DNA from: Agathobacter sp.
GTDB lineage: Bacteria > Bacillota > Clostridia > Lachnospirales > Lachnospiraceae
Length of the DNA: 64,000 bases
Assembly: GCA_017409825.1 (NCBI GenBank)
Contig: JAFQRZ010000029.1
Location: 18,199 to 82,198, forward strand
Reading direction: 5' to 3'
Shown here: positions 18,998 to 39,718 of the stretch, piece by piece
Layout of the letters: each line of letters opens with the position of its first letter
Position numbering within the stretch: position 1 is the first letter of the stretch
Program-made: the position numbers and the translations under genes
Notes under the pieces: generated by a model
Seen by the model: the letters and a program-made list of their open reading frames with translations, nothing else
Told to the model about the DNA's origin: nothing
The model's database searches: none

Positions 18998-19001
18998 GGG
19001 A

Positions 19002-22336: not shown

Positions 22337-22704
22337 TAATCGATATTCCCCTGTTCCTTTCTTTTTAAGGCAAGTAACATACTGTGAATGGTCTGTAAAT
22401 CCTCCGGACTAGAGTCTCTAGCCGCATCAAAAAGCACACGAAGCTCTTTGTTTTCGAAAATAGCCTGAGCTACTTTCACAGTCTCATCGTTTAAATAATA
22501 GGTTTCTGATTCTTCTTCGCCAGTTCGTAAGTATTCCACAGAAACACCTAGAAAATCCGCGATCTTTGAAAGTTTATCATTCTTAGGATTACTTCTTCCA
22601 GATTTCCAATCAGAAAAAGTAGATTTCGTAATGCCAGTAGCCCTTACTATATCGGCATCTTTTAATCCTTTTGCATCTCGTATCTTGCAATAAATTTCAT
22701 ACAT
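22336..22704 (-). CDS. HTH (XRE/CI-like) repressor of the tail locus
   Basis: A 122-residue protein: an N-terminal helix-turn-helix (residues 1-60; DADIVRATGITKSTFSDWKSGR with SKIADFLGVSVEYL) and a short acidic helical C-terminus without an S24 autocleavage domain. ATG 22704 follows GGGGGAATATC; an upstream extension would enter the operator region. It is divergent from the tail operon and next to four GTTCGGAAATC-like operators. Lack of a LexA-type peptidase domain means induction must use another route, perhaps the ImmA-like partner. Confidence 0.88.
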   Translation of the reverse strand: MYEIYCKIRDAKGLKDADIVRATGITKSTFSDWKSGRSNPKNDKLSKIADFLGVSVEYLRTGEEESETYYLNDETVKVAQAIFENKELRVLFDAARDSSPEDLQTIHSMLLALKRKEQGNID

Positions 22705-22750
22705 GATATTCCCCCATCTAAAAAAAGTTTTAAAATCCGTATAAAAATGA

Positions 22751-22779
22751 TTGACAAGTTCTGAAATCCAAACTATTAT
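22751..22779 (+). promoter_or_regulatory. Early rightward promoter with operator
   Basis: TTGACA (22751-22756), 17 nt, TATTAT (22774-22779). The operator-like GTTCTGAAATC (22758-22768) lies inside the spacer and a second site GTTCGGAAATC (22791-22801) just downstream, so repressor binding would block this promoter. Confidence 0.8.
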
Positions 22780-22790
22780 AAATACACAAG

Positions 22791-22801
22791 GTTCGGAAAT
22801 C
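22791..22801 (+). promoter_or_regulatory. Repressor operator GTTCGGAAATC
   Basis: The best match of four related sites. It lies downstream of the rightward -10 and within the leader of the leftward transcript. Confidence 0.7.
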
Positions 22802-22825
22802 AAAACAAATCTATCTAGCAAATAT

Positions 22826-22854
22826 ATTATAACTGATTTCCGAACTTATATCAA
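22826..22854 (-). promoter_or_regulatory. Leftward repressor promoter with operator
   Basis: Minus strand TTGATA (22849-22854), 17 nt, TATAAT (22826-22831). An exact GTTCGGAAATC lies in the spacer (22835-22845, read on the minus strand), giving autoregulation. A partial site GTTCGGAAGG (22861-22870) overlaps the ribosome binding site of the OB-fold gene. Confidence 0.8.
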
Positions 22855-22881
22855 GAAAAAGTTCGGAAGGGAGTGAATTTG

Positions 22882-23502
22882 GTGAATAATCAAACAGAAA
22901 ACAATCAAGTTACCTTAGTCGGTCATATTGCATCTGGTTTTACCTTTAGTCATGAAGTATATGGGGAAGGGTTTTACCTGCTGGAGGTCGACGTGAAGCG
23001 ATTATCAGGAGCCACGGATAAGATTCCAGTTATGGTCTCAGAGCGTCTAGTGGATGTAAGCCAGGAGTATTGTGGGGAAGCAGTATACCTGATAGGACAG
23101 TTTCGTTCGTTTAACAAACAGGGAGAAAACAAAAAGCATCTCATGTTATATGTGTTTGCGAGAGAATTTTTATTCTTGGATAAGCCAGATGCTGTAGATG
23201 AGCAGAACCATATTATATTGGATGGATATATCTGTAAAGAGGTGTTATATCGAAAAACGCCACAGGATAGAGAAATTGCAGATGTATTAGTAGCTGTAAA
23301 TCGTTCATACGGGAAATCAGACTATATCCCATGCATTATTTGGGGAAGAAATGCTCAGTTTATTGCGAATTTTCCAGCAGGCACCCATGTGCAGCTTTGG
23401 GGTAGGGTTCAAAGCCGAGAATACCTCAAAAGAAAAAATGAGAACGAGACAGAACAACGTGTAGCCTATGAAGTGTCTGTGAGCAAGGTTAATTTACCTT
23501 AG
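22882..23502 (+). CDS. OB-fold single-strand-binding-like protein
   Basis: A 206-residue protein with two apparent OB-fold halves: residues 8-95 (VTLVGHIASGFTFSHEV, later VYLIGQFRSF) and 105-206 (HIILDGYICKEVLYRKTP, later VQLWGRVQSREYLK). Such tandem SSB/PriB-like proteins occur in early regions of clostridial prophages. GTG 22882 is chosen because AAGGGAG ends 8 nt upstream; GTG 22873 abuts that site. It is the first gene of the rightward operon. With no replication genes nearby, its role may be regulatory or repair-related, which is inference. Confidence 0.7.
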   Translation: MNNQTENNQVTLVGHIASGFTFSHEVYGEGFYLLEVDVKRLSGATDKIPVMVSERLVDVSQEYCGEAVYLIGQFRSFNKQGENKKHLMLYVFAREFLFLDKPDAVDEQNHIILDGYICKEVLYRKTPQDREIADVLVAVNRSYGKSDYIPCIIWGRNAQFIANFPAGTHVQLWGRVQSREYLKRKNENETEQRVAYEVSVSKVNLP

Positions 23503-23515
23503 AAATGGAGGTCAA

Positions 23516-23968
23516 ATGGTTCTGACAAGACAGGTATTAGAAGATTATCAAAAATTGGGGCGTGAAATTGCCCGAATTAATAAAAAACTCGATTATTATG
23601 CAAATACCCCATTGAAAGCCCAACATGGTATCGTAAAAGGTTCTACAAAAGGCTTTCCATACACGGAACGTCGTATTGAGGTAGGAGCCCCTAGCATCGC
23701 AGACACGAAGCAGCGGGAGCAAAAGGTGAGAGAACTGATGATTCAGCTTGGCAATAGGAAAAAGGAGTATGAGCAACTGAAATTTGATATCGATATCGAG
23801 ATAGAAGAGATAGAAGATATGGAAATGCGTCAGATATTGCAGTATAGATACATAGATGAAATGACAATCGCGGAAATAGGAGAATCCATCGGCTATGACC
23901 GAAGCACCATCTCCAAAAAAATAGACCGATTCCTAGACAAACAGGTTTCCCCCACTTCACATTTATAG
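23516..23968 (+). CDS. ArpU/sigma-like phage late activator
   Basis: A 150-residue protein. The N-terminal 100 residues are a charged coiled coil; the C-terminus has a sigma region 4-like helix-turn-helix (LQYRYIDEMTIAEIGESIGYDRSTISKKI). Proteins of this layout sit at the end of the early region of Firmicutes phages and switch on late genes. TGGAGGTC precedes ATG 23516. The tail genes start about 50 nt later, so the promoter it acts on is probably in the 23960-24000 stretch, where I see no housekeeping consensus. Confidence 0.75.
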   Translation: MVLTRQVLEDYQKLGREIARINKKLDYYANTPLKAQHGIVKGSTKGFPYTERRIEVGAPSIADTKQREQKVRELMIQLGNRKKEYEQLKFDIDIEIEEIEDMEMRQILQYRYIDEMTIAEIGESIGYDRSTISKKIDRFLDKQVSPTSHL

Positions 23969-24020
23969 TGTGCTAGGATGACTATTGTAAAGAATTATGT
24001 TTAGAGAGGAGGTGACGGAC

Positions 24021-24419
24021 ATTCTTAGCGTAAGAGAGTTGATATACACACGATTAACCCAAAGACTTCTGGAAGACGAGGGCGCACCTTATACCGCAGA
24101 AACATTACATCTGACGGAAACAAAAAAAGGTGTACCTACAGAGTTTCCAGCCTTGCACATAGATTTTATCGGTGAAACGAGTACTGCAGGAGATTTGGAA
24201 AAGACACAACAGAATGCGATTATTTCGACCATCGAATTAAAAGCATATTCCGATACATCGCTTGGAGAGGCAAGCGAAATTTTAGATAAAGCAGGTGATG
24301 TGATGATTGCCATGGGCTACTCTGTGATTCAGGGGCCAGAAGATGTATCAGACACAAACCATGCCAAATCGGTACGTTTCCGCCGAACCATTGGAGACGA
24401 AGATATCAAATATTTATAA
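24021..24419 (+). CDS. Tail terminator/minor tail protein, possible ATT start
   Basis: About 132 residues, of the size and position of siphophage tail terminator proteins just upstream of the tail tube gene. Strand-rich middle (EFPALHIDFIGE, IISTIELKAYSD) and a helix DKAGDVMIAMGY fit that family. The start is unusual: a strong AGAGGAGGTGA (24005-24015) is spaced 8 nt from an ATT codon at 24021, while the ATG at 23997 has no ribosome binding site and the in-frame GTG at 24012 overlaps the AGGAGG. ATT initiation is proposed; the alternative adds 8 residues. Confidence 0.65.
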   Translation: MLSVRELIYTRLTQRLLEDEGAPYTAETLHLTETKKGVPTEFPALHIDFIGETSTAGDLEKTQQNAIISTIELKAYSDTSLGEASEILDKAGDVMIAMGYSVIQGPEDVSDTNHAKSVRFRRTIGDEDIKYL

Positions 24420-24446
24420 AAATCAAGAATTAGGAGGTAATTTAAC

Positions 24447-24941
24447 ATGGCAAGTACAAGTTATTTAGCAAGAGTAATTATTAAGGAGCACACAGACACA
24501 GGAGCAACTACAGATTTCACAGGAAATTACAAATTATTGATCAAAGCAAAATCAATTCCAGCACCTGTATCTGCACCAAACACAGTAGAAAGCACTACTC
24601 TCGAAGATGATACACAGACCTTTGAAATGGGCATCAAGACATCTGACAAGAGAGAAGTCAAAGGTAATCTTGAAAAAGAATACTTACAGGCAATTAACGA
24701 AATGGCTGGTAAGAAAATCGACATCATCCACATGTATGGTACAGACGGTGTCGGCGGCGTAGCGAAATACGCTTATGTAGGACAGGTAGTAGCTACTCCA
24801 GATGAAGTAGGCGGAAATGATGAAATCATCGGCATGACAGCAACTATCATTCCAAACACCGTAGCAGTAGAATGTACCGACGAATATGTCGTAACAGACA
24901 ACAAAGACGGCACATTCACTGTAGCAAAAGCAAATGCGTAA
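24447..24941 (+). CDS. Major tail tube protein
   Basis: A 164-residue protein with the short strand-rich layout of siphophage tail tube subunits, in the expected position between the tail terminator and the tail chaperones. Features include PNTVESTTLEDDTQTFEMG, characteristic of clostridial tail tube proteins, and a C-terminal DGTFTV strand. AGGAGGTAA precedes ATG 24447, and codon choice suggests high expression. A single tube protein without a neighbouring sheath gene indicates a non-contractile tail. Confidence 0.85.
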   Translation: MASTSYLARVIIKEHTDTGATTDFTGNYKLLIKAKSIPAPVSAPNTVESTTLEDDTQTFEMGIKTSDKREVKGNLEKEYLQAINEMAGKKIDIIHMYGTDGVGGVAKYAYVGQVVATPDEVGGNDEIIGMTATIIPNTVAVECTDEYVVTDNKDGTFTVAKANA

Positions 24942-24999
24942 ATCAGCATAAGGGAGACAGGAAATGTCTCCCTTTTCTCAAAAAGGAGGAGAGCATACA

Positions 25000-25440
25000 A
25001 TGTATAAACTTAAAATGAAAGACAAAGAATACGAGATTAAATTCGGATATAAGCCAACCCTGAAAGCCAACCTGATTTCACGCATGATTCAGGCTGGCAG
25101 TAATGTTTCCCAGCAGGGAGAAGGCAGTGAGACCCTTTTGCAGGTAGAAGAAATGCTGCTGCTCATTCCAGAAATCATTCTGGTAGGATTGCAGAAAAAC
25201 CATAAGGATGAATTTGGATATGATTATGACACCGACGAAGGCAAGACGACTGCCTTGGACAAGGTTTTCGATATGATGGACGACTACTTCGAGGAAGAAA
25301 GTGCAGACATTCTCCAGTTGTACAATGATTTGCAGAACGAGATGTTGAGCGAGGGTTTTTTAAAGAGTATGTTCCAGAGGGAAATGGCGGAACAGAAGAA
25401 AGCGAACAAGAAGAATACCAAGAAAACTCCTCAGAATTAA
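25000..25440 (+). CDS. Tail assembly chaperone G
   Basis: A 146-residue protein translated in the zero frame. Mostly helical and acidic with a basic C-terminus (QKKANKKNTKKT), typical of the first tail assembly chaperone of siphophages. ATG 25000 has AAAGGAGGAG upstream. The slippery heptamer T-TTT-TTA at 25356-25362 lets a fraction of ribosomes move to the -1 frame and make the longer GT product (see the entry at 25329). The chaperones bind the tape measure during tail assembly and are not in the mature particle. Confidence 0.85.
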   Translation: MYKLKMKDKEYEIKFGYKPTLKANLISRMIQAGSNVSQQGEGSETLLQVEEMLLLIPEIILVGLQKNHKDEFGYDYDTDEGKTTALDKVFDMMDDYFEEESADILQLYNDLQNEMLSEGFLKSMFQREMAEQKKANKKNTKKTPQN

Positions 25441-25838
25441 ACTGGTCCACCTATGTAGCTGAAATAAGACCGTATTGGCTGATGGTGACGAAAGGATATG
25501 GTTTCTCCATCCACGATATTGATTGTGCATGTCCAGCGGACTTGGAACCATACGCACAGGCTCACAAAATGGAGCTCAAGGGAAATGATAACATGGCATG
25601 GATGTATTGTGGTAATTATGTCCTCAGTGCGATATCGGTCGCGTTAGAACACTGCCTGGCAGGCAGCAAGGCGAGATCAGAATATTTAAAAGAACCAGTT
25701 CTGACACGGCTTGGGGAATATGATGGTCTCACACAGGCAGAAATTGACGAAAGAGAGCTCCGAAAAATGCTTCTCGCAGAGAAACAGTGGCAGATGGTGG
25801 GCGATAGGAGTCATTTGTCGAAGACGGAATTGAAATAA
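25329..25838 (+). CDS. Tail chaperone T extension, expressed as GT by -1 frameshift
   Basis: This frame is open from 25329 and overlaps the end of G by over 100 nt; it has no plausible ribosome binding site at its first ATG (25482). The overlap contains T-TTT-TTA at 25356-25362, in register with the G frame, a classical slippery heptamer. A shift there would yield a 279-residue GT protein spanning 25000-25838. The T part has SELNWSTYVAEIRPYWLMVTKG and a helical C-terminus. This mirrors lambda G/GT; the actual shift rate is unknown. Confidence 0.82.
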   Translation, partial: FAERDVERGFFKEYVPEGNGGTEESEQEEYQENSSELNWSTYVAEIRPYWLMVTKGYGFSIHDIDCACPADLEPYAQAHKMELKGNDNMAWMYCGNYVLSAISVALEHCLAGSKARSEYLKEPVLTRLGEYDGLTQAEIDERELRKMLLAEKQWQMVGDRSHLSKTELK

Positions 25839-25867
25839 GGCATCTACTTAGGTAGGTGTCTTTTTAT
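25839..25867 (+). terminator. Hairpin T1 after the chaperones
   Basis: GGCATCTAC/GTAGGTGTC stem with two wobble pairs and T5. It belongs to a hairpin family (GACATCTA.. TAGGTGTC) also found at 28031, 31375 (half) and 32632, always flanking the tape-measure genes or their accessory cassettes. Confidence 0.7.
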
Positions 25868-25945
25868 ACAAGATTATCTTCACCCCATTCACAACTTTGG
25901 TAGTGTTGAGAAAATTACGAAATGGTTGAAATAAAAACAGATAAA
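25868..25945 (+). repeat. Cassette repeat copy 1 (TTCACCCCATTCACA family)
   Basis: After T1 comes ATACAAGATTATCTTCACCC followed by CATTCACAAC and GAGAAAATTACG. The same order of elements recurs at 27261 and 31382, each time ahead of an accessory membrane-protein gene. Confidence 0.6.
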
Positions 25946-25981
25946 TAAAAATATACAAACTTTTAAGAGGAGAAATTCAAT

Positions 25982-26725
25982 ATGAGTAAGAAAAATGAAA
26001 CGGTAGATGGTGCTAAAGAACCAATTTTTAAAAGGTGGTGGTTTTGGGTAATCGTTGTAGCACTTGTATTTGGTAGAGGCGGAAATTCAGGAGATGACAA
26101 GGATACCCAGATTTCTAATAATTCTTCGAAAAATAGTGAAAGCCAAATGGAAGATAAAAATAGTGAAAGCCAAGTGGTAGATAAAAATAGTGAAAGCCAA
26201 GTGGTAGATAAAAATAGTGAAAGCCAAGCGGCAGATAATAATAGTTCTAATCAGGATGCGACAGATAAAGAAGCGAGTACAAATGAATCAAGTTTAACAA
26301 TGGGTCAGAGAAATGCTTTGAAAAAAGCGAAAAGCTATTTGCAAGTCATGGATTTTTCCTATAAGGGATTGTTAGAACAGTTAAAATATGAAGGTTTTAC
26401 GACAGAAGAAGCAACTTTTGCGGTAGATAATTGCGGTGCTGACTGGAAGAAACAGGCATTAGAAAAAGCAAAAGATTATTTGGACACTATGGCTTTTTCT
26501 TATAAAGGATTGTTAGAACAGTTAGAATATGAGGGTTTTACAAACGAGGAAGCTACATATGGTGTGAACAATTGTGGGGCGAACTGGAAGGAACAGGCCG
26601 CTAAAAAGGCAAAGGATTATTTAGATATAATGTCTTTTTCGAGAGAAGGGTTAATTGAGCAGCTTGAATACGAAGGTTTTACGGCAGAAGAAGCAGAATA
26701 TGGTGTTACAGCTATAGGTTATTAA
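25982..26725 (+). CDS. Membrane-anchored Ltp-repeat protein, candidate self-immunity
   Basis: A 247-residue protein. Residues 18-35 (RWWFWVIVVALVFG) are a membrane anchor; no lipobox Cys is present. Residues 50-92 are a Ser/Asn/Asp spacer built from a 27-nt tandem repeat. The C-terminal 140 residues hold three copies of about 46 residues with the pattern ALxKAKxYLxxMxFSYKGLLEQL and EGFTxEEAxxxVxNCG. This matches the Ltp repeat of the TP-J34 exclusion lipoprotein, which blocks DNA injection by acting on the tape measure protein. It lies upstream of the tape-measure genes in AT-rich DNA. Self-protection is inferred; AGAGGAG precedes the ATG. Confidence 0.8.
   Translation: MSKKNETVDGAKEPIFKRWWFWVIVVALVFGRGGNSGDDKDTQISNNSSKNSESQMEDKNSESQVVDKNSESQVVDKNSESQAADNNSSNQDATDKEASTNESSLTMGQRNALKKAKSYLQVMDFSYKGLLEQLKYEGFTTEEATFAVDNCGADWKKQALEKAKDYLDTMAFSYKGLLEQLEYEGFTNEEATYGVNNCGANWKEQAAKKAKDYLDIMSFSREGLIEQLEYEGFTAEEAEYGVTAIGY
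26131..26241 (+). repeat. 27-nt tandem repeat in the Ltp-repeat gene
   Basis: About four copies of a unit beginning AATAGTGAAAGCCAA and ending GTGGTAGATAAA, in frame, encoding NSESQ-VVDK. The copies differ by few bases, so the linker length can change by slippage. Confidence 0.85.
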
Positions 26726-27428
26726 TTGTTGAAAAATTATTATCCAATATGGTATGCATGCTTTTATATTATGTGATATGATTTTTTATGATAAGCAATT
26801 ATATATTGATAAAATTGTACTTAAGGAGAGGTATATGGATAGTAATGAATTAGATGCAATCGCGAAAGAAGTGCATATGAGTTATTATAGTAAGGGAAAG
26901 TTTGGAAAAGATCGAGAAGAGATTAAAGAGATATGTTAGCGGACCGGAGTTGATAAAGAAAGGCAATTGAAAAGATTAAACACCCATATGGAACTGGAAT
27001 AAATTATAGAGGTCCTGTTCCAAAGAAGCGTTGTCCAAAATGCCGAAGTGAAAAATTTCATGCGTTCGTACATGAAGAGGTAATTAGAGAGGGAATAGTA
27101 AAGACACATACTTCTTTAAATTTGAATCCATTCAAACCATTCACAATTTTTAATCATAGGCCAAAAGTTATCAGAAAACCTATAACGAAACAAGTAAGCA
27201 AGTTTGTTTGTGATAATTGTGGAGAAATCTTTTAGATATTAATACTATTTGTAGCTATGTTTTCACCCCATTCACAGATTAGGTATGTTAAAATATATAG
27301 TGTAAAAAAGTACGCAAAACATAGCTTTGGGTATAGGCATAAAAAATACAAATATTACCATATTCGGTATGCAAATACTTTTCTAATGTGTTATAATTCC
27401 TTAAAAATAAGGAAAGGAGAAAAATCTT
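26726..27428 (+). pseudogene. Gap with broken zinc-ribbon gene
   Basis: This gap has no intact gene. From ATG 26835 (AAGGAGAGG before it) a frame MDSNELDAIAKEV runs to a TAG at 26939; in another frame, without start, 26951-27235 encodes HPYGTGINYRGPVPKKRCPKC and ends FVCDNCGEIF, a four-cysteine zinc ribbon. Together they look like one gene broken by frameshift and stops. The remainder is the promoter/repeat region before the next lipoprotein gene (TTCACCCCATTCACA at 27261, palindrome at 27356, TATAAT at 27392). Confidence 0.55.
27356..27397 (+). promoter_or_regulatory. Cassette promoter with TACCATATTCGGTA operator
   Basis: The palindrome-like TACCATATTCGGTA (27356-27369) lies immediately upstream of the -35 position and TATAAT (27392-27397) follows. 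The same arrangement with identical spacing is at 31531-31572. Confidence 0.65.
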
Positions 27429-27986
27429 ATGAAAAGAAAATTAATACTTGTATTTGTTCTATGCATGTGCTTTTTAGTAGGCTGTGGCGGAAATGATGAC
27501 GAGAAAGATAAGGGGAAAAATACAGAAACGAAGCAGGAGAGTGAAGTAGATACAGAAGCAGAAAAAATTGCGAATATGACAGAGGAAGAGTATAAAGCGT
27601 ACTGTGAGGTAATGTATAATAAAGAAATTTTTGAAAGAGATGATATAGAGGGAAAACATATCAAAATATATGGTTTTATTGCTGGAAAATATCGATATAC
27701 AGATTCATCTACATTTGGAATGGTAATAAATGATTTAACGAAAAAATATGATTTGGATACGAAGTATCTTGACCTTGGAGTTGCTCATGAGGGAAAAGGA
27801 AGTTATGCTGGAGATGGCGTGTATCTGTTATTTGATAATGAAGGTGATTTGTCTATTGATGACTACGAAAGTGGATTGGAGATTATTGTATATGGTGAAG
27901 TAGTTCAATGTTGGAATGGACCATTTGTTATTCCGAAATATATAGAAATATCAGAAATTGCGTTTCCTCATTTAGAAATGAAATAG
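27429..27986 (+). CDS. Lipoprotein with OB-fold-like domain
   Basis: A 185-residue lipoprotein: signal peptide with hydrophobic core LILVFVLCMCF and lipobox LVGC (Cys18), then an acidic linker, then a strand-rich domain (HIKIYGFIAGKYRY, EIIVYGEVVQCW) resembling the tRNA_anti-like OB-fold of DUF domains in surface lipoproteins. AAGGAGAAAA precedes the ATG. It has its own promoter and sits directly upstream of the large tape-measure gene. A surface-exposed exclusion or immunity role is suggested by position only. Confidence 0.7.
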   Translation: MKRKLILVFVLCMCFLVGCGGNDDEKDKGKNTETKQESEVDTEAEKIANMTEEEYKAYCEVMYNKEIFERDDIEGKHIKIYGFIAGKYRYTDSSTFGMVINDLTKKYDLDTKYLDLGVAHEGKGSYAGDGVYLLFDNEGDLSIDDYESGLEIIVYGEVVQCWNGPFVIPKYIEISEIAFPHLEMK

Positions 27987-28030
27987 AGTAAATGTGAATT
28001 AAAATAGAAAATAAGGAATTTAATTAAGAA

Positions 28031-28058
28031 GACATCTATTTAGGTAGATGTCTTTTTT
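28031..28058 (+). terminator. Hairpin T2 just before tape measure 1
   Basis: GACATCTA (28031-28038) and TAGATGTC (28045-28052) with T6. It would terminate the lipoprotein transcript and would need read-through for tail-operon transcription to continue. Confidence 0.75.
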
Positions 28059-28090
28059 ATATGTCAAGAATTAAGAAAGAAGGTGAAAAA

Positions 28091-31000
28091 ATGGCAGAGA
28101 GCATTGACAAAAAGCAATTAGAAGAGATTACAGAAGAAATGACAAATGCACTCAATGCGACAAGTAAATTGCAAGAAGAGGTAAGTGATTTAAATACTAC
28201 TGTGAAAAAAATAGACATTAGTAAGCTGAGTGATATGACGGATGCTTTAGTACAAAGTAGGGATGCCGCAAAAGAAGCGTCAAATAATTCATCAGGACTA
28301 GTTACTGCTATGGAAAAGCTTTCTCAGAAGATGCCAAATATTAAAACAGCGGTGGATAAGATTACGCAATCTGTACCAAATATCAAGACAGTAATTGATG
28401 GTATTTCAAAAAAATTACCAGATGTGAAGAAAACGATGGAGAATATTTACAAGGCGACAGAAAGTACAGAAGAATATTTCAAGTCATTTAATTACTATAC
28501 AGATACTTTCGGTGAAATTGCGTCGAAGTGGGATAAAGATTTTGAAACCTATGGGTCAGAAAATGCAAAGAAATATTCTAATACGTTTGTTCAGCAGATG
28601 AATGAAAGTTTAGGCAAATTATCTGGAATGAAAGTAAGTCTGTCGGTAGATATGGAAAGTGGTATTTTAACAGAAAGTGGCATGAAAGACTTGGGATTAA
28701 ATGTTCAGGAGGTGACACAATTTGTTGCAGAGTTCGCTTCTATCTCAAATTCAATGGGGCAGACAGGGGATGTTTCTCTTGCAATTGCTGATGTATTTAC
28801 CAAGTTAGCAGGAGATTTGTCGTCGTATTTTAATGTTGATTACAGTACAATAATGGAGGATTTACAAAACGCTCTCTTAGGACAGACCGATGCATTAGAG
28901 GAATATAGAATTAATCTATCTGATGTCCAATTACAAACATTAGCCTATGAATATGGGATTGAAAAGTCGGTAGAGGATATGACTCAGGCAGAAAAAGCAC
29001 AGTTAAAAATGATTGCGATTCTAAAGCAGTCAGATGCGTATTGGGGAAATTTGGCAGATACTATAAATACACCAGCAAATACATTCCGCGAATTAGCGAA
29101 CAACTGTAAAGAAGTAGTTACAGTATTTGGACAGTTATTTATGCCTGTTTTAGAGCAGATACTACCATTTGTTGATGGTGTTGTTATTGCAATAGGAAAT
29201 CTTTTAACAAGTATCGCTGGATTTTTTGGAATAAAAGTCAACATGGATGATATGGGCATTGGAACAGATGGCGCATCCGCTGAACTAGAAGCAAATCATG
29301 GTGGAGAAACTGCTTATACAATAGAATACAATAGTTCTTTTAGCCTTGCAGATGGTTTCTTAGAAGAAGTGTCGCTATATGAGGAAGTTTGGAATCAGGC
29401 GTATGAAAATATGAATAAGAAATCTCAGGAATGGGCAGATAAGGTAGATACGTTCTTCGGACCAGTGAAATCCATTTTCTCAAGCTTGGCAATTGGGGAT
29501 TATGTCAGTGTTGGAGAAAACGTAGGATTACTTGCAATTAGTATCATGGATTTCTTTAAAAATGCGATTGATAGTGTAGATTGGCAGGCAGTTGGAGAAA
29601 AGATAGGGGAATTCCTTGAAGGAATAAATTGGACAGAAGTATTCTCTTCTATTGGTGAGTTAGTAGGTGAAGCAATTGGTTCAGCATTTGAAGTCTTAGG
29701 TAGTATTTTCGATGCTGCACCTTTGGAAACAGGAATTGTGACAGCGATTGGTCTTATCAAATGGACTGGATTAGGGAAGGCAATCTCATCAGGTAGTTTA
29801 TTCAAGAGTTTAGCTACATTGTTTTCAGGGCAATTGCTAGAAGGGAATGGCTTTTTCTCAAAACTGGGAAATGCATTCGCATTGACAATTGGTGATGCAG
29901 GTGATTTTGGCGACGCGTTAATAACAGAGTTCGAAGGATTGGGTGGCATAGTTAAGATTGTGACGGCTGTTGGGTCAAAGATAAGACAGGTCGTTAGCGA
30001 AATAGGTACAGGTATGAGGGATTTCCTTTCTGTGATTAGGTTGGTTTTGAGAGCAGTTGCAGAAAAGGTGGGGGCTCTTATACCTAAAATTGTAGGTGAA
30101 ATGACATCTGCCCTTAGTAAAGCAGGTGTATTTATTAAGTCCATTATAACATTCCTCCAACCATTTGCAGCTGCAATTGCAAGTGTAGTAGTAATTATAG
30201 CAGGTATCGCTTTCGCAGTGAGCAATTTTGTTACAATGTTCCAAGAGGGCTTTAGCTGGGTAAATGAAGCTATCATGCTTGTTGGAATTGCACTTGCTGC
30301 TGTGGGGGCAATATTTTTAGGGGCGCCTGCGTTAGTTTCTGGTATTGTAGCTGGTATTGTAGCAGTAGTAGCGACCCTAGTGGTGATAATTAAAGAAAAC
30401 TGGAATGAAATATGTGCATTTATCTCAAGTGCAATAGGTTTGATTGGTGAAATGTTTGTGCTATGGGGAGTTGGTATCGTAAATAATTTTAAAGCAGTTG
30501 TTTCGATTATTGGATCGGTACTAAAAGAATTATGGAATTCCATCAAAGCAATATTTGAATCTCTAAAAACTATTTTTTGCGGATTCATTGAATTTATAAC
30601 AGGAGTTTTTAGTCTAGATTGGAAAAAAGCATGGAATGGACTGGTTAATATTTTTTCTGGAATATTTGGGACTATTAAAAATGTTTTAATAATGCCATTG
30701 AATGCTGTGATTGCATTGATTGAAACATTAGTTAATAAGATTATTGGAGGATGGAATTCTCTCGTAAAAGCTCTTAATAAATTCAGTATTGATATCCCAA
30801 GTTGGGTACCTGAAATAGGTGGAAAGAAATTTGGTATAAATATAAAAACGGCATCTACAATTACGATTCCACGTTTTGCCTCCGGTGGATTCCCAGAAGA
30901 TGGTTGGTTCCGTGCGAGCCACGGTGAAATCATGGGTCGATTTGACAATGGACAGTCAGTAGTTGCCAATAATATGCAGATTACGGAGGGGATTGCTCGA

Positions 31001-31174
31001 GGCGTAAGAGAAGCAGTTTCGGGAGTTTTAATTCCATACTTAGCGGATATTGCGGATAGTTCAAGGAGAACTGCAAATAAGGATTTTACTGTTGCTAGTA
31101 GGGATGTATTCGAAGCTGTAAGAGCCGAATCAAGCAATTATACACGAAGAACGGGTGAATTAGCTTTTATTTAG
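28091..31174 (+). CDS. Tape measure protein 1
   Basis: A 1027-residue protein, the longest in the locus. The N-terminal third is coiled coil rich in helical heptads; the middle (residues 600-800) contains strongly hydrophobic segments such as FAAAIASVVVIIAGIAFAV and LVSGIVAGIVAVVATLVVII, typical of tape measure proteins that enter the target membrane. The C-terminus has FASGGFPEDGWFRASHGEIM, a hallmark of clostridial tape measures. AAGAAGGTGAAAA precedes ATG 28091. Length sets tail length in siphophages. The C-terminal 98 nt repeat is shared with tape measure 2. Confidence 0.9.
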   Translation: MAESIDKKQLEEITEEMTNALNATSKLQEEVSDLNTTVKKIDISKLSDMTDALVQSRDAAKEASNNSSGLVTAMEKLSQKMPNIKTAVDKITQSVPNIKTVIDGISKKLPDVKKTMENIYKATESTEEYFKSFNYYTDTFGEIASKWDKDFETYGSENAKKYSNTFVQQMNESLGKLSGMKVSLSVDMESGILTESGMKDLGLNVQEVTQFVAEFASISNSMGQTGDVSLAIADVFTKLAGDLSSYFNVDYSTIMEDLQNALLGQTDALEEYRINLSDVQLQTLAYEYGIEKSVEDMTQAEKAQLKMIAILKQSDAYWGNLADTINTPANTFRELANNCKEVVTVFGQLFMPVLEQILPFVDGVVIAIGNLLTSIAGFFGIKVNMDDMGIGTDGASAELEANHGGETAYTIEYNSSFSLADGFLEEVSLYEEVWNQAYENMNKKSQEWADKVDTFFGPVKSIFSSLAIGDYVSVGENVGLLAISIMDFFKNAIDSVDWQAVGEKIGEFLEGINWTEVFSSIGELVGEAIGSAFEVLGSIFDAAPLETGIVTAIGLIKWTGLGKAISSGSLFKSLATLFSGQLLEGNGFFSKLGNAFALTIGDAGDFGDALITEFEGLGGIVKIVTAVGSKIRQVVSEIGTGMRDFLSVIRLVLRAVAEKVGALIPKIVGEMTSALSKAGVFIKSIITFLQPFAAAIASVVVIIAGIAFAVSNFVTMFQEGFSWVNEAIMLVGIALAAVGAIFLGAPALVSGIVAGIVAVVATLVVIIKENWNEICAFISSAIGLIGEMFVLWGVGIVNNFKAVVSIIGSVLKELWNSIKAIFESLKTIFCGFIEFITGVFSLDWKKAWNGLVNIFSGIFGTIKNVLIMPLNAVIALIETLVNKIIGGWNSLVKALNKFSIDIPSWVPEIGGKKFGINIKTASTITIPRFASGGFPEDGWFRASHGEIMGRFDNGQSVVANNMQITEGIARGVREAVSGVLIPYLADIADSSRRTANKDFTVASRDVFEAVRAESSNYTRRTGELAFI
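30905..31002 (+). repeat. 98-nt perfect repeat, copy 1
   Basis: Identical to 33985-34082. It codes for the WFRASHGEIMGRFDNGQSV region and the following residues near the C-terminus of both tape-measure proteins. Flanking sequences diverge sharply, which points to recent recombination or strong conservation. Confidence 0.95.
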
Positions 31175-31602
31175 TGAAAAGCTGTTTACAGAATAAAGTA
31201 GACAGCAATTATTATGAAAATTGTGATCTGCGATTGACAGATTATGTAAAGACTGATAAAACAATTAGCTTTGGTTATGAGGTTGTTTTTCGAAAATAGC
31301 ATACAATATGTCCTAAATGATATGAGAAAAACGTTTTATTTAAGTGTATAAACTGTGATTAAGATTATGATTTAGCAGGTGTCTTTTTATATGCAGGATT
31401 ATTTTCACTTCATTCACAATCGAAAGATGCTAAAATATATAGTGTAAGAAAGTGTGCAAGAGTAAATTCTATTTTGTGACTCTGATAGCGTGCTAAAAAT
31501 CTCTTTTAGACCATAAAAATTTAGAATTATTACCATATTTGGTAGTAATATAAGAAAAGAATGTGGTATAATTCTTTTAAAACAAGAATGGAGGAGGAAG
31601 GT
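31175..31602 (+). promoter_or_regulatory. Inter-cassette region with remnants and promoter
   Basis: No intact gene. 31177-31299 is open without a start codon (ends TISFGYEVVFRK), and 31308-31372 reads in part CPK...VLFKCINCD, a decayed zinc-ribbon like that of the 27.0-27.2 kb remnant. At 31375-31385 is the right half of the T hairpin (AGCAGGTGTCTTTTT), at 31390-31450 the TTCACTTCATTCACA cassette repeat with AAATATATAGTGTAA, at 31531-31544 TACCATATTTGGTA, and at 31567-31572 TATAAT with extended TG. Confidence 0.6.
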
Positions 31603-32586
31603 ATGGAAGAAGAAATTAAGAAAAAACCATATGGAATATGGTCTTTAGTTCTTGGAATAATTAGTATAGTGCTTTTCCTTAATGTTTCGTGGCTTGCACT
31701 TCTTACGAGTATAGCGGGAATTGTTTTGGGAGTATTAGGAGTATCAAATGGAAAGAAAGGTATATCAATTGCTGGTCTTATTTGTTCTGCGATTCCTGCA
31801 CTGATTTTCTTTGTAATGATGTTAATAGTTATAGCTGGAAGTGGAACGTATACTCCTGACACAGAAAACTCAGAAGCGGATGAAGTAATTTACTTGCAAG
31901 ATTCTGAAATTGATAATGCATATGCTTCACCAGATAGTTATGCGGGAAAGTATATTGCTATTGGTGGTATAGTATTTGGAGAACCAGAAATTCATGAAGA
32001 CCAAGTATATTTCCAAATGTATGGAGATGCAGTGAATAATGAGAAAAATACAATAGTGCGTTTTATTGGACAGGTAGACGTATCGGCTGGTGATTATGTT
32101 AAGGTAGAGGGGAAGATTGTAGGTTCGACGGAATATAAGAATATGCTTGGTGGAACTTTAACTGCATTGTTAATTGAGACAAAGAGTGTGACTGAAAGTA
32201 CTTATATTGAATGTTGTTCACCAACCATCAAAGAAGTGGTATTAGACAAAACAATTGATCAATATGGTTATGCTGTTACTGTGAACAAGATAGAGTTTGC
32301 GGAAGCGGAAACGAGATTATACTTAACTGTAACCAACAATGGAAAAGATAATTTTAGTGTTTATCCATTTAAAATCAAAATTGTTCAAAACCAGAAGCAA
32401 TATGAATATAAATTCAACTTTGATGCGGATTATGAAGAACTCCAGACGGATTTACTGCCAGACACAAGCTCATCTGGTATTATAGTATTTCCACCAATGG
32501 ATCCAGAGATGGGGTTGAAAATTTACTGTAAAGGAAGTTGTGATGATTGGTCTGTTGATTTAGAAGACTATGTGTTTGAATATTAG
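31603..32586 (+). CDS. DUF4190-type membrane protein with OB-fold and beta domains
   Basis: A 327-residue protein. Residues 8-75 hold two hydrophobic hairpin segments in DUF4190 style (YGIWSLVLGIISIVLF, IAGIVLGVLGVSNGKKG, ALIFFVMMLIVIAGSG). Residues 100-200 form an OB-fold-like region (AGKYIAIGGIVFGEPE), and the C-terminus a beta sandwich like DUF4352 (KIEFAEAETRLYLTVTNNGK). ATG 31603 follows GGAGGAGGAAGG. It lies directly upstream of tape measure 2 behind the same promoter type as the 27.4 kb lipoprotein, making it the second candidate exclusion/immunity gene. Confidence 0.72.
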   Translation: MEEEIKKKPYGIWSLVLGIISIVLFLNVSWLALLTSIAGIVLGVLGVSNGKKGISIAGLICSAIPALIFFVMMLIVIAGSGTYTPDTENSEADEVIYLQDSEIDNAYASPDSYAGKYIAIGGIVFGEPEIHEDQVYFQMYGDAVNNEKNTIVRFIGQVDVSAGDYVKVEGKIVGSTEYKNMLGGTLTALLIETKSVTESTYIECCSPTIKEVVLDKTIDQYGYAVTVNKIEFAEAETRLYLTVTNNGKDNFSVYPFKIKIVQNQKQYEYKFNFDADYEELQTDLLPDTSSSGIIVFPPMDPEMGLKIYCKGSCDDWSVDLEDYVFEY

Positions 32587-32631
32587 TAAATTTAAGAAAG
32601 CTAAAGTAAAATAAGGCATTCGACAGTGAAA

Positions 32632-32660
32632 AGACATCTACAAACGTAGGTGTCTTTTTT
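32632..32660 (+). terminator. Hairpin T4 before tape measure 2
   Basis: AGACATCTAC (32632-32641) / GTAGGTGTCT (32646-32655) with T-run; same family and same place relative to the ATG as T2 (about 35-40 nt upstream). Confidence 0.75.
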
Positions 32661-32691
32661 ACACTCAAAATTTAGAAGGAAGGTGACAGAA

Positions 32692-34254
32692 ATGAGTAAA
32701 AACATGAATCAACTTTCGAATAGGACGATGGTTGAAATGATTAGGATGAATGATGCAATAGGAAAAAATGTAACTAAAATGGATAGAGCATTTGCATCGC
32801 TTTATAGTACTACTTTAAAATGTGGAGAAATATGGATGAAAACGGAGGAGAATATTAGCAATCTCACACTACAACTTGAAATAAGTTTAGTAAGTACATT
32901 TGAAACATTAGAGAAAATATCAGGAGAAATGTTGGATGATTTTCTTAGCACAGCGGAAAATGTGGACAAATTAGTTTCTAAGCTTGATGAATTTGTTGCA
33001 AAAATAGAAATACCTTCAATGGCAGTTGGAGGAGAAGAAAGTAGTAGTGGTGGTTTTCTTGAAAAGGAGTTAGCGGAGACAGTCGAAAATGGAATAGACA
33101 TAAGTGATAGCATTAATCAATTGGAACCTTATATTCAAGAAAAGTTAGAAGATTGGTTGGAGATTGATGATGATGATATTCCATTATTATCTATGTTTTC
33201 TAAGCTCGCATTAGCATTCTATTACAATCTGGGAAAAGAATATGGAGAATTACTAAATAATGTTCATGAAGTAGGAGAAGAAGCTAGGGAGAGCAGTGGA
33301 AAAGGTGTGATGGATAAGGCTGCATTATATCTATATGATACAGAAAAGGTTAATACAGAAGTTCAGCAAGCACAAGTAGATGTTTTGGGAGAAAAAATAT
33401 CTGGTCTGACGGATAAAGTAAAATTATTTCAACAGGAAACGACTACCGCAAATGATACGATAACGCAATCTTATGCAGATATGATTACTGGAATCGGAAA
33501 AAAAGTTGAAACATATCAAACAGATATCCAAGCTGCCAATGATGCAGTAACCCAATCTTATGCAGAAATGTTTTCAAATATGGGAACGAATGTAGCGACT
33601 TGGTGGACAGAAGATGTTTCACCGTGGTTTACTGCAGAAAAATGGCAAGAACTTGCAAGTGGTATGCAAATAGGATTATTCAATAAGTGGTTAGAAACAG
33701 AATTATGGTGGGATGAAAACGGAGAATTGTCTGAAATTACGGTAGGGCTTTCCGACTTCCTAACAGAAACAATGGAAAAATGGCAAGAACTTCACTATTG
33801 GTGGAAGAATGATAAAAAAGGATTGGATGATTTAAAACTTGGAATAAAAATACCTAAGTTTAAAATAACCTTTGATGCGAAAGATGATTATGCTGATATT
33901 TTTAAGTTGTTTGGCTTAAATGGGACACCCAAATTCTCATTTGTATACAAAAAATACGCCACTGGCGGTTTCCCAGAAGATGGCTGGTTCCGTGCGAGCC
34001 ACGGTGAAATCATGGGTCGATTTGACAATGGACAGTCAGTAGTTGCCAATAATATGCAGATTACGGAGGGGATTGCTCGAGGGGTAAGGAATGCGAACTC
34101 AGAGCAAAACGCTCTTCTAAGAGAGCAGAATGCTCTTTTAAGACAGATTCTTGCGAAGGACACAGGGATTTCCACGAGAGCTGTTTTTGAGGCCGTGCGA
34201 AGTGAAAACCGGGATTACATTAATAGAAATGGGGAGAGTGCATTTGCATTTTAA
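32692..34254 (+). CDS. Tape measure-like protein 2 (short)
   Basis: A 520-residue protein, half the length of tape measure 1. The first 330 residues are charged coiled coil with an internal repeat TQSYADMITGIGKKVETYQ / TQSYAEMFSNMGTNVATW; no long hydrophobic segments are visible. The C-terminus carries GGFPEDGWFRASHGEIMGRF and then a distinct ending (EQNALLREQNALLRQILA). AAGGAAGGTGAC precedes ATG 32692. It may be an alternative tape measure, a duplicated C-terminal module on a new N-terminus, or a dedicated tip protein. Its 5' flank copies that of tape measure 1. Confidence 0.75.
   Translation: MSKNMNQLSNRTMVEMIRMNDAIGKNVTKMDRAFASLYSTTLKCGEIWMKTEENISNLTLQLEISLVSTFETLEKISGEMLDDFLSTAENVDKLVSKLDEFVAKIEIPSMAVGGEESSSGGFLEKELAETVENGIDISDSINQLEPYIQEKLEDWLEIDDDDIPLLSMFSKLALAFYYNLGKEYGELLNNVHEVGEEARESSGKGVMDKAALYLYDTEKVNTEVQQAQVDVLGEKISGLTDKVKLFQQETTTANDTITQSYADMITGIGKKVETYQTDIQAANDAVTQSYAEMFSNMGTNVATWWTEDVSPWFTAEKWQELASGMQIGLFNKWLETELWWDENGELSEITVGLSDFLTETMEKWQELHYWWKNDKKGLDDLKLGIKIPKFKITFDAKDDYADIFKLFGLNGTPKFSFVYKKYATGGFPEDGWFRASHGEIMGRFDNGQSVVANNMQITEGIARGVRNANSEQNALLREQNALLRQILAKDTGISTRAVFEAVRSENRDYINRNGESAFAF
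33985..34082 (+). repeat. 98-nt perfect repeat, copy 2
   Basis: Identical to 30905-31002, at the equivalent codons of tape measure 2. See the first copy for its meaning. Confidence 0.95.
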
Positions 34255-34275
34255 ATGAATGATTAGGAGGTATAT

Positions 34276-34686
34276 ATGGCATTTAACGGATATTTATTAA
34301 AGATGGGAGAGGATATATTTCCTCTCTTTTTTGTTTTCAAAGAAAGCTACAAAGTAGTACCAAACAGAAGAGTGGATTTAGATAGTTCTAGGAATGCAAA
34401 TGGGAAATTGCAGAGAAATGTATTGGACCATATGCCTAGCACGATCTCTTTCCAAACAAAACCGATGTGGAATGACGAATTAAATGAGATGATGTCATTC
34501 ATTCGCAGTCATTTCTCGGTCGAGAAAGAAAAGAAGATGATTCTGGAATATTACTGTCCAGATACCGATGACTACAAGACTGGGGAGTTCTATGTTCCAG
34601 ATATAGAGTACTCTATCAGTCGAGTTGATTTGGAGAACAACAAAATTTTTTACAATGGATTCCAACTTGAGTTCATTGAATACTAA
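34276..34686 (+). CDS. Distal tail-type protein (DUF6711-like)
   Basis: A 136-residue protein beginning MAFNGYLLKMGEDIFP, with a tryptophan/proline-rich middle (TISFQTKPMWNDELNEMM) and a C-terminal strand pair ending GFQLEFIEY. Proteins of this length between tape measure and tail-tip gene act as distal tail hubs in clostridial siphophages; assignment rests on position and pattern. AGGAGGTATAT precedes the ATG. AAAGGAGGTGG of the next gene follows its stop after only a few bases. Confidence 0.7.
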   Translation: MAFNGYLLKMGEDIFPLFFVFKESYKVVPNRRVDLDSSRNANGKLQRNVLDHMPSTISFQTKPMWNDELNEMMSFIRSHFSVEKEKKMILEYYCPDTDDYKTGEFYVPDIEYSISRVDLENNKIFYNGFQLEFIEY

Positions 34687-34701
34687 GAAAGGAGGTGGAT
34701 T

Positions 34702-36825
34702 ATGCTTAATGTTTCGAAAGAATTGAAAGAAGCCTTTTTAAGTGCTGAGCAGAAGAATTTAGTATTGACCTTTGATGATGGAACAGTGATTGACAATGAA
34801 GATATAGCATCGGAGAGCATGGAATTAGAGCAAACGCTCTGTGATAGTGATGAACTGAAGTTTGGGAAAGTATCAAGTGCCTGTTTTAAGACAAAAATTG
34901 CTGCATCAACCAAGAGGTACAAGAACCTTTGGTTCAATGCAAGTATTGGTGTAGGCGAATATGAGATACAGCTTGGTAGATTTAAGGTTTATACCGATAA
35001 CATGACTTCTGATCGCTTATATCGAGAGATTGTGGCGTATGATAGTTTGTTCTGGGCGACGAATACAGATGTTACAGAATGGTACAACGGACTTGCCTTC
35101 CCTATTTCGCAGAAAGCATTTAGAGATAGTTTGTTTGCGTATTTAGGAATCGAGCAAGAAAGTGTAGAGTTGCCAAATGATAGCATTTCTTTTCAGCGTA
35201 CTGTGGATGCTGAAAATCTAACAGGGCTGACTGTATTACAAAAGTTATGCGAGCTGAATGCAGCATGGGGTGTTATCAATAATGCGGGTAAGTTCAAATA
35301 TGTGCATATGCGAACCCATGAACATGATGCTTTATATCCAAGCGACGATTTATATCCAAGTGACAATGTATACCCTGATGATATTTACGATGATAGATTG
35401 TCAAAAGCGGATTATTACCAGGGATCATTAACGTATAAGGAGTTTGATGTACAATCTATTTCAAAGGTCACGATTAGAGAAGATTCCGAAGATGTAGGAT
35501 ATTCATACGGTGTGGATGGAAATACCTACGTCGTAGAAGGGAACTTCTTGTTGTATGGTGCGACAGCCGCTACATTACAGATGGTTACTAAGAATTTTTA
35601 CGAGTATGCCAGCTATCTGGATTACACTCCGTCACAACTCAAATGTAAAGGCGCACCTTGGAGAGAAGTAGGGGATTTGCTTAGAGTAATTGCAGATAAG
35701 CGAGTGCTCACAGTTCCTATCTTCAACCGCCAGTTAAATGGTATAACTGCTTTAAATGATACCTATATTGCTAGGGGGGCAGAGACCTGTGGCGAAATGA
35801 AAAACAGTCCTACTGAGCAGCTAAAACAGTTGCAGAGCAAAACAAATAAGCTGACACGTACGCTGGATGAAACGAGGTCAGAGATGCAGAAGTTTGAAAC
35901 TGATGTAAATGGACAGTTAAATAGTATGTCCAGTACTATTTCTCAAACTGCAGAAAAAATTTCACTTGACGTTTCTAAGAGCTTGGAGAATTACTCAACC
36001 AAAGAAGAAATGAATAGTGCTATACAAGTTAAGGCTGATAAGATTAGTTTAGAGGTTGGTAAAAAGGTTGGAAATAATGAAGTTATTTCTGCAATTAATC
36101 AGACTGCAGAAGATATAACTATTGATGCAAGTAAAATAAATCTTCGTGGAGTTGTTACTGCGAATAATTATTTTAAGATAAATGAAGAGGGTTCTATGGA
36201 ATCCACTGGCGGTAAGATTGCAAATTGGGATATTAAGTCGGATTACTTAGGTTCATATGGAGAGGCTGCTGACACATTATTTTTGTCACAAAATGGTAAA
36301 AATGCGTATATAAATGCATTAAATGCTTCAAAAGACTGTAATATTTATGCTAAAGGAAATTTTGCGGTAGATACAACCGGAGTGGCTTATATGACTAATG
36401 CTAATATCAGTGGTGTGCTTACAGCTGGTAAAGGTTCCTCTCTTGGAGGATTTTCTGTAGATGATGATTCGCTATTTTCGGGAAAATGGGGAAATCATAC
36501 AATGCCAGATGTTTTCATGTGCACTGGTGCACCTGGTTCATATTATGTCGGCGATGAGTTAGTTACGGGTTTAGCATTTGGTGCTGGAGGAAAATTCGGT
36601 GTAACTAAGAATGGCGCTTTATATTCAAAAAATGGCAACATTGGCGGGTTCGACATTAATGGTTCATATCTAGGTGGTGCAGCAAATACAGGCGGTTATG
36701 TTGTTGCATTTTATCCAAAAGGAACTCCATTAGATGGAACTACTTTCTTTTTGGTGATTTATAAAGACAGTGTCTATGGTGATGCTGTTGGTGGGATTTG
36801 TTTATCAGGATGGAGAACTCTATAG
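34702..36825 (+). CDS. Tail tip / endopeptidase-type tail protein (Tal-like)
   Basis: A 707-residue protein. The first 380 residues follow the gp27-like hub of siphophage tail-associated proteins (LKEAFLSAEQKNLVLTF, LGRFKVYTDNMTSDRLYREIVAYDS, LTGLTVLQKLCELNAAWGVI). Then a coiled coil (370-460; LKQLQSKTNKLTRTLDETRSEMQ), then a repetitive strand-rich C-terminus with GGFSVDD and GGFDINGSYLGG units. It probably forms the tip that contacts the cell wall. The end (GDAVGGICLSGWRTL) is abrupt and may be a truncated version. AAAGGAGGTGG precedes the ATG. Confidence 0.8.
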   Translation: MLNVSKELKEAFLSAEQKNLVLTFDDGTVIDNEDIASESMELEQTLCDSDELKFGKVSSACFKTKIAASTKRYKNLWFNASIGVGEYEIQLGRFKVYTDNMTSDRLYREIVAYDSLFWATNTDVTEWYNGLAFPISQKAFRDSLFAYLGIEQESVELPNDSISFQRTVDAENLTGLTVLQKLCELNAAWGVINNAGKFKYVHMRTHEHDALYPSDDLYPSDNVYPDDIYDDRLSKADYYQGSLTYKEFDVQSISKVTIREDSEDVGYSYGVDGNTYVVEGNFLLYGATAATLQMVTKNFYEYASYLDYTPSQLKCKGAPWREVGDLLRVIADKRVLTVPIFNRQLNGITALNDTYIARGAETCGEMKNSPTEQLKQLQSKTNKLTRTLDETRSEMQKFETDVNGQLNSMSSTISQTAEKISLDVSKSLENYSTKEEMNSAIQVKADKISLEVGKKVGNNEVISAINQTAEDITIDASKINLRGVVTANNYFKINEEGSMESTGGKIANWDIKSDYLGSYGEAADTLFLSQNGKNAYINALNASKDCNIYAKGNFAVDTTGVAYMTNANISGVLTAGKGSSLGGFSVDDDSLFSGKWGNHTMPDVFMCTGAPGSYYVGDELVTGLAFGAGGKFGVTKNGALYSKNGNIGGFDINGSYLGGAANTGGYVVAFYPKGTPLDGTTFFLVIYKDSVYGDAVGGICLSGWRTL

Positions 36826-36858
36826 TTATTCAATAAAGTGCAAAAATTAATAATGTAA

Positions 36859-36898
36859 GGCTGCCATGCATCATCAATCAACGCATGACAGTCTTTTT
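36859..36898 (+). terminator. Terminator-like hairpin between tip and fibre genes
   Basis: GGCTGCCATGC pairs with GCATGACAGTC (two wobbles) before TTTTT. It splits structural genes from the fibre module and could attenuate fibre expression. Confidence 0.65.
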
Positions 36899-36918
36899 CT
36901 ATAAGGAGGTAGCAAAAA

Positions 36919-38361: not shown

Positions 38362-38377
38362 AGGAGGATAATATTTA

Positions 38378-39262: not shown

Positions 39263-39290
39263 AAGTAAATAAGATAGAGAGGTAAAGTAT

Positions 39291-39716: not shown

Positions 39717-39718
39717 TT

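Follow-up and report, generated by a model that had tools for sequence, protein, structure and literature searches.

The 64,000-nucleotide stretch of DNA analysed here, referred to as the window (Agathobacter sp., assembly GCA_017409825.1, contig JAFQRZ010000029.1, positions 18,199 to 82,198), contains a tail-only gene cluster resembling an F-type tailocin (positions 22106-40522), in which the region of the tape-measure protein (TMP) genes is interrupted by cassettes for envelope proteins. The cluster lies between a decarboxylase-like gene (20784-22049), which we take to be related to diaminopimelate decarboxylase, and a tRNA-Leu gene (40625-40707), and comprises a repressor pair, a single-stranded DNA-binding protein, a sigma-70-region-4-like protein, tail genes, a holin and an amidase. 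Behind the tail chaperone genes follow, all on the plus strand, a hairpin with a T run (25839-25865), a short sequence box (25879-25893), an Ltp-repeat gene (25982-26725), a promoter-like element (27262-27294), a lipoprotein gene (27429-27986), a second hairpin (28031-28057), the gene of TMP1 (28091-31174), another promoter-like element (31404-31436), the gene of a membrane-anchored protein (31603-32586), a third hairpin (32633-32659), the gene of the TMP-like TMP2 (32692-34254) and finally the tail-tip genes. A preliminary description of this DNA had noted that an envelope gene directly precedes each of the two TMP-like genes, with an Ltp-repeat gene as a third, and this arrangement was confirmed. 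The backbone is common to two further loci, one in the same genus and downstream of the same decarboxylase gene (98%; G015) and one on an IMG/VR contig of 23,307 bases (G456).

The Ltp-repeat protein carries three PF07553 repeats (177.6 bits, E 4.7e-53), as is typical of the Ltp family, matches the superinfection-exclusion PHROG 4980 (E 3.9e-72) and is 91% identical to its counterparts in both relatives. Judged by eye only, its N-terminus contains a hydrophobic stretch but no canonical lipobox. The lipoprotein encoded at 27429-27986 possesses a leader ending in LVGC (by eye), followed by a variable ectodomain. It had no match in phage records, and its one relative in 397 family genomes besides its own (G374) is encoded near a contig start beside a transposase-like open reading frame (ORF); further lipoprotein matches in G015 share the leader only, where examined (C25). 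The anchored protein was initially labelled a DUF4190/OB protein, which is only partly borne out: DUF4190 stays below its cut-off (14.6 versus 35 bits) and support for an OB fold is weak (tRNA_anti-like, E 0.002, likewise below cut-off), and it is DUF4352 that passes (26.8 versus 25.9 bits). We thus describe it as a DUF4190-like membrane part with a DUF4352 and weakly OB-like ectodomain. It matches four phage records, one of them in the ectodomain. A relationship between its ectodomain and that of the lipoprotein was rejected (hhalign probability 0.2). PADLOC returned no match for eight proteins, and comparison with solved structures gave no meaningful match.

Of the two tape measures originally proposed, TMP1 stands (1027 aa, phrog_1535, E 3e-35; an upstream start at 28061 is open too). 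In TMP2 (520 aa), the resemblance to a TMP is confined to the final ~105 residues: it has nothing but the C-terminal ~105-115 aa in common with TMP1 (59% over 115 aa), no PHROG match, no hydrophobic window and no predicted membrane segment. It could represent a remnant, or else an accessory tape measure of reduced length. Comparison of TMP1 with the full TMPs of G015 and G456 revealed strongly uneven conservation, with 33-65% identity for residues 1-130, 76-80% for 131-380, 23-32% for 590-925 and 95-99% at the C-terminus. The variable part holds 11 of the 15 hydrophobic windows of the three proteins (one at its edge), and its closest relatives differ from TMP to TMP: L120 for that of G015 (50% over 304 aa), L024/L025 for the end of that of TMP1 (42% over 139 aa) and L129/L133 for that of G456 (32-35%). 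The membrane region of the TMP is hypervariable and mosaic. Among the envelope proteins, lipoprotein leaders are 85-93% identical and ectodomains 51-87% (five pairs compared), and the first 90 residues of the anchored protein are 94% identical to those of its G456 counterpart, while the rest diverges and is not confidently alignable; anchors thus stay and outer parts change. In another tail locus (L121, 5965-12719), the TMP gene is split by an ORF that by eye resembles a GIY-YIG endonuclease.

According to the preliminary description, all three cassettes begin with the same type of sequence and end at the same hairpin, and the envelope gene ahead of each tape measure is independently promoted. 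The pattern itself holds for the most part and exceeds chance. Exact copies of the box TTCACCCCATTCACA stand at 25879 and 27262, and one with two mismatches at 31404; taken alone, this 15-base box is near background (11 genome-wide matches with at most two mismatches versus 7 in a reversed control). The longer promoter-like form, box-N9-TGNTARRAT, is found in the window at 23947, 27262 and 31404 only (0 in 100 shuffles), hence at two of the three cassettes. A slightly looser pattern detects the same three sites only in the whole 2.8 Mb genome (reversed control 0), three sites in G015 (2.0 Mb, 71% complete), all inside its locus, and five on the G456 contig. The copy at 23947-23979 (plus strand) is situated at the end of the sigma-like gene, ahead of the tail operon. 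The promoter element is private to the locus and common to the tail operon; the cassette promoter is thus not independent, and "independently promoted" is partly incorrect. The Ltp genes of the window and of G456 possess the box without the matching -10 part, and lipoprotein B of G456, the Ltp gene of G015 and the lipoprotein X gene of G015 have no full promoter match. Upstream of the extended -10 stands a direct repeat, TTCAC-N4-TTCAC, which looks like an activator site, and the sigma-like protein (23516) would be the obvious candidate for an activator that drives the locus promoter. Since the -10 of the full-match cassette copies is TAAAAT and that of the three tail copies TAGGAT, the cassettes might show more basal promoter activity than the tail operon.

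The hairpin pattern occurs in the window only at 25839, 28031 and 32633 (0 in 100 shuffles). It closes two of the three cassettes; the copy at 25839 follows a chaperone gene and precedes the Ltp gene. A moron would have a promoter and terminator of its own and be constitutive in the lysogen; two of the three cassettes have a promoter-like element and a hairpin, but the element is common to the tail operon. In a phage with head genes (L036, 7744-7856), a terminator-like hairpin of different sequence was seen by eye between chaperone and TMP genes, where it perhaps acts as an attenuator ahead of the TMP gene; the hairpin may hence be part of the TMP gene rather than of the cassette. Positions 26940-27236, which separate the Ltp cassette from the lipoprotein cassette, appear by eye to hold a decayed zinc-ribbon gene, similar to the final part of the intact zinc-ribbon proteins of G456 and G015.

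Apart from Ltp, the cassettes differ in kind and order between the window and its relatives. In G456, the array reads zinc-ribbon, lipoprotein X, Ltp, lipoprotein B with a TMP stub, lipoprotein A with a TMP stub, lipoprotein X, DUF4190-anchor protein, full TMP, zinc-ribbon and DUF6711. In G015, the order is zinc-ribbon/transmembrane (TM), lipoprotein X, Ltp, zinc-ribbon, lipoprotein B with a stub, lipoprotein C with the full TMP, zinc-ribbon and lipoprotein X, after which the contig ends. Zinc-ribbon proteins directly follow the full TMP in both G015 (L067, reverse complement, 18613-19236) and G456 (L022, 9321-9944, a double zinc ribbon, PF12773); none follows TMP1 or TMP2 of the window.

Both relatives thus contain orphan units, in which an intact lipoprotein gene is followed by a TMP start only. 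The three stubs (290-375 nt) all stop at ...AAGGCGACWGAAAGC, followed by CATRTTTTCACCC, the start of the next cassette. This junction corresponds to residue 125 in TMP1 and the G015 TMP and to residue 132 in the G456 TMP. Lipoprotein genes come and go together with the TMP 5' end, as units, at this one fixed junction. The profile phrog_28918 matches all three full TMPs, beginning 3-4 residues past the junction, which identifies the junction as a natural module border. Such a border, the common stop of the stubs and the 81-93% identity among their 3' halves would also be expected if the stubs formed a store of alternative TMP starts that recombine with the full TMP gene to change its N-terminus, the lipoproteins merely riding along. 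We regard this as very improbable, since the pattern of conservation is the reverse of what a store would need: two of the three stubs are frameshifted (290 and 373 nt are out of frame, 375 nt is open), the lipoproteins ahead of all three are intact, and one ortholog pair of them is under purifying selection.

This pair is lipoprotein B, an orphan in both relatives (omega 0.13, dS 0.57, Nei-Gojobori). By the same method, omega was 0.23 for lipoprotein A, 0.07-0.14 for X and 0.15-0.21 for Ltp; overall, the lipoprotein, Ltp and anchored-protein genes are open, with omega 0.07-0.30 where measured. Toxin-immunity modules of the contact-dependent inhibition (CDI) and Rhs type have a conserved body, a variable active part and orphans, that is, incomplete modules whose protective gene survives. 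The three stubs, each behind an intact lipoprotein gene, follow this pattern, in which truncation of the toxin gene leaves the protective gene in place, and the retained lipoproteins may accordingly have a protective role. The general pattern of conserved body, variable part and incomplete modules is the same; but in the present loci the presumed protective gene lies upstream, it is the N-terminus that is displaced, and no cognate specificity was found.

The surrounding cluster opens with two minus-strand genes for a small, weakly ImmA/IrrE-like protein (22106-22336; PF06114, E 0.009, below cut-off) and a helix-turn-helix (HTH) repressor (22336-22821; HTH_3, E 1.9e-9); all further genes are on the plus strand. 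The single-stranded DNA-binding protein (22873-23502; PRK05813, 286.8 bits versus a cut-off of 171) sits in the regulatory part of what is a headless, non-replicating element, and is followed by the sigma-70 region 4-like protein (23516-23968; PF04545, 29.5 versus 24.1 bits). Downstream lie a tail gene (23997-24419), the tail tube (24447-24941; phrog_158, E 7.4e-6) and two chaperone genes (25000-25440, phrog_183, E 1.9e-7; and 25482-25838). The genes at 23997 and 25482 lack a family match and were named from position and conservation in relatives. Beyond the TMP region, the tail-tip and fibre genes (34276-39262) comprise DUF6711 (34276-34686), 34702-36825, 36919-38361 and 38378-39262, followed by the holin (39291-39716; PF05105) and the amidase (39719-40522; Amidase_3). 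A PHROGs scan of the 19 cluster proteins gave no match to terminase, portal, capsid or integrase families, and the cluster is consequently taken for a headless siphophage tail, similar to an F-type tailocin: it encodes a tail and lysis proteins of its own, with no genes for head formation, packaging or integration. The matches of TMP1 and of the protein at 34702-36825 to families carrying the label minor head or virion structural protein (best phrog_1775, E 1.2e-9) were partial and probably reflect tail-tip or coiled-coil similarity. The tRNA-Leu gene (anticodon caa) directly after the amidase gene could be the trace of a former prophage attachment site. In G456, the gene next after the amidase gene by eye resembles a purine nucleoside phosphorylase gene, so that this flank differs from that of the window.

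Conceivably, the whole locus could be what is left of a prophage in decay, with duplications and without a function today, as the stubs, the apparently decayed zinc-ribbon gene (by eye) and the odd TMP2 might suggest. Conservation of the backbone makes this improbable. The tail tube is 99% identical in both relatives (dN 0.003, dS 0.19-0.31), and holin and amidase reach 96% in G456; the open envelope genes and their low omega values point in the same direction. Over the stretch that runs from the repressor to the chaperones, identity to the window proteins is 84-99%; in G456 it is 90% for DUF6711 and 66% for the 34702 protein. Within the genus, the tail tube has matches in 3 of 62 genomes (its own, G015 with 99% and G010 with 34%).

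Taken together, the cluster is best read, with a probability of roughly 0.55, as a domesticated headless siphophage tail (an F-type, monocin-like tailocin) with built-in exclusion or immunity proteins that block the TMP. As judged from gene content, it would produce particles that kill, probably as a weapon directed at related bacteria. The cassettes would have accumulated around the TMP gene, and their products would be anchored in the envelope with the outer part beyond the cytoplasmic membrane. There, they would most likely bind the TMP when it emerges from a docked tail and keep it from spanning the membrane, which would protect the producing strain and its kin against released tails as well as against strains whose tails are related. 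Both the outward orientation of the envelope proteins and their action on the TMP are predictions from sequence. A precedent is offered by the founding Ltp member from Streptococcus thermophilus phage TP-J34, which is transcribed in the prophage and blocks injection via the TMP of the incoming phage (PMC3952083). The presence of an Ltp protein in the array, with 91% identity in both relatives, is counted as support for TMP-directed exclusion, and so are the intact orphan lipoproteins with purifying selection on B, the locus-private promoter, the conserved anchors with variable outer parts and the mosaic membrane region of the TMP. The window protein resembles this founder in its PF07553 repeats; it differs by the apparent lack of a canonical lipobox and by its location in a tail operon beside the TMP gene of a headless element, the founder being part of a lysogeny module (PMC3952083).

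Several points weigh against this reading, beginning with the pairing of killer and immunity genes that had been proposed, together with a comparison of related strains in which the envelope gene should change with the adjoining TMP. In five lipoprotein/TMP-start units, lipoprotein ectodomain identity did not co-vary with TMP 5'-half identity (Mantel r -0.13, a value reached in 66% of the 120 label permutations; Spearman -0.45, P 0.19); this comparison covered the TMP start only, and the 24 bases by which the window segment overruns the junction were handled as gaps by the alignment. Strict lipoprotein/TMP-start pairing was rejected on these units. Lipoprotein B precedes two different TMP starts (64% identity between their 5' halves), several envelope genes are not followed by a TMP, which counts against strict pairs, and no envelope type was met twice next to a full TMP in the three loci. 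Envelope genes thus vary in part independently of the TMP, and strict one-to-one killer/immunity pairs, or one dedicated immunity protein per TMP, are not supported, three loci being too few to settle the matter. What survives of the suggested protective role is carried by the Ltp family, the intact orphan lipoproteins and the variability of ectodomains and TMP region. A link at the level of classes is possible: one class of TMP start occurs in all five lipoprotein units and others in both DUF4190-anchor units (1 in 21 by chance if the units were independent, which they are not). Among 27 other TMPs compared, the G456 TMP start has one clear outside relative, L136 (z 13.1, next 5.4), whose TMP, like that of G456, adjoins a DUF4190 protein.

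The wider family likewise offers little company. A survey of 41 loci, reduced to 24 by removal of 15 near-duplicates and 2 without recognisable TMP, found signal or TM proteins of at least 150 aa in the gaps beside the TMP in three unrelated tail loci, which speak in favour of the reading: a 407-aa TM protein, an Ltp protein and a 367-aa protein after the TMP in G283 (L121), a 156-aa lipoprotein-like protein between chaperone and TMP with other ORFs intervening in G053 (L126), and a 314-aa DUF4190 protein (35.5 versus 35 bits) directly after the TMP in G010 (L136). The other 21 loci have no Ltp, DUF4190 or lipoprotein gene beside the TMP; further ORFs with N-terminal TM segments were small and in head/tail operons (L036, L023, L121), chaperone-like (L136), or holins and genes beyond the lysis genes (L041, L044, L120, L134, L136). 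The ectodomain of the anchored protein is not significantly related to the 407-aa protein of L121 (BLAST E 0.12); the latter and a lipoprotein of L137 both match phrog_5319. In a genome of another genus (G335:C41:30000-47000, reverse; L120), the tail tube is 72% identical and no envelope cassette accompanies the TMP. Since this 17 kb stretch looks tail-only, with no head genes seen by eye, a tail of this kind can do without the array. In addition, no tested member was found for the families of the lipoprotein and the anchored protein, and since the promoter is common to the tail operon, cassette expression may be limited to induced cells about to lyse.

These observations bear on another explanation, namely that the cassettes are ordinary morons, i. 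e. surface or superinfection-exclusion genes directed against other phages, which sit beside the TMP merely because insertions are tolerated there and which do not act on the tail's own TMP. The Ltp gene, present in 36 of 396 family genomes, is mostly distant from TMP genes. Among stretches from 34 genomes (G000 and G283 left out), the 28 with an Ltp ORF, after omission of 6 without a recognisable one, yielded no TMP by BLAST to 23 TMP references, although several stretches stop at contig ends and distant TMPs could escape; five contain an integrase-like gene. A general Ltp-TMP linkage was thus rejected. In the 10 of 22 viral Ltp contigs that were annotated, Ltp follows a TMP-like ORF in one (L104, by eye), and none was seen in the other nine. 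Moreover, relatives of the 31603 ectodomain are lipoproteins in prophage-like contigs away from the TMP, with an integrase-like gene nearby in L137 and head genes around in L209 (genes labelled by eye), and the missing pairing at the TMP start fits ordinary morons as well. They would not account for lipoprotein genes tied to TMP 5' ends at a fixed junction in all three stubs, nor for cassettes that have the tail promoter in common, and we consider this explanation possible yet unlikely.

Among known systems, the TMP-blocking reading finds a parallel in gp15 of phage HK97, a moron for a small membrane protein that is functionally tied to the TMP, as HK97 hybrids carrying the tail tube and TMP genes of HK022 escape its exclusion (PMC10883804). 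The window locus differs in its several cassettes, its lipoprotein genes linked with TMP 5' ends and its tailocin-like context. A membrane nuclease, SNIPE, also associates with TMPs (PMC13190303). The overall gene layout recalls monocin, the F-type tailocin of Listeria, which comprises regulatory genes, a tail module, holin and endolysin without a head and does not kill its own parent strain; no envelope-gene array is mentioned for it in the excerpted source (PMC6872733). No such array was found in a tailocin in the literature searched, as far as the excerpts extend. The nearest case is an actinobacterial contractile system of 2026 with a TMP-derived effector of variable C-terminus and an adjacent immunity protein (PMC13277306). 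There, the protective gene lies downstream and the effector is thought to act on nucleic acids (PMC13277306); the window has tail genes of the non-contractile type, with envelope proteins encoded upstream.

Self-resistance to tailocins is usually ascribed to surface receptors, in Gram-negatives to lipopolysaccharide (LPS) to which the tailocin fails to bind (PMC12090994). More tentatively, the locus may be viewed as a polymorphic killing TMP accompanied by an array of dedicated immunity proteins, some current and some orphaned, which are moved in units with the TMP 5' end under a locus-private promoter; such a dedicated, transferable immunity is, on present evidence, a doubtful proposition. 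If true, a tailocin with several candidate TMP-blocking proteins would mean that immunity is gene-encoded and transferable, and blocking proteins of this kind would explain the strong variation of the TMP membrane region.

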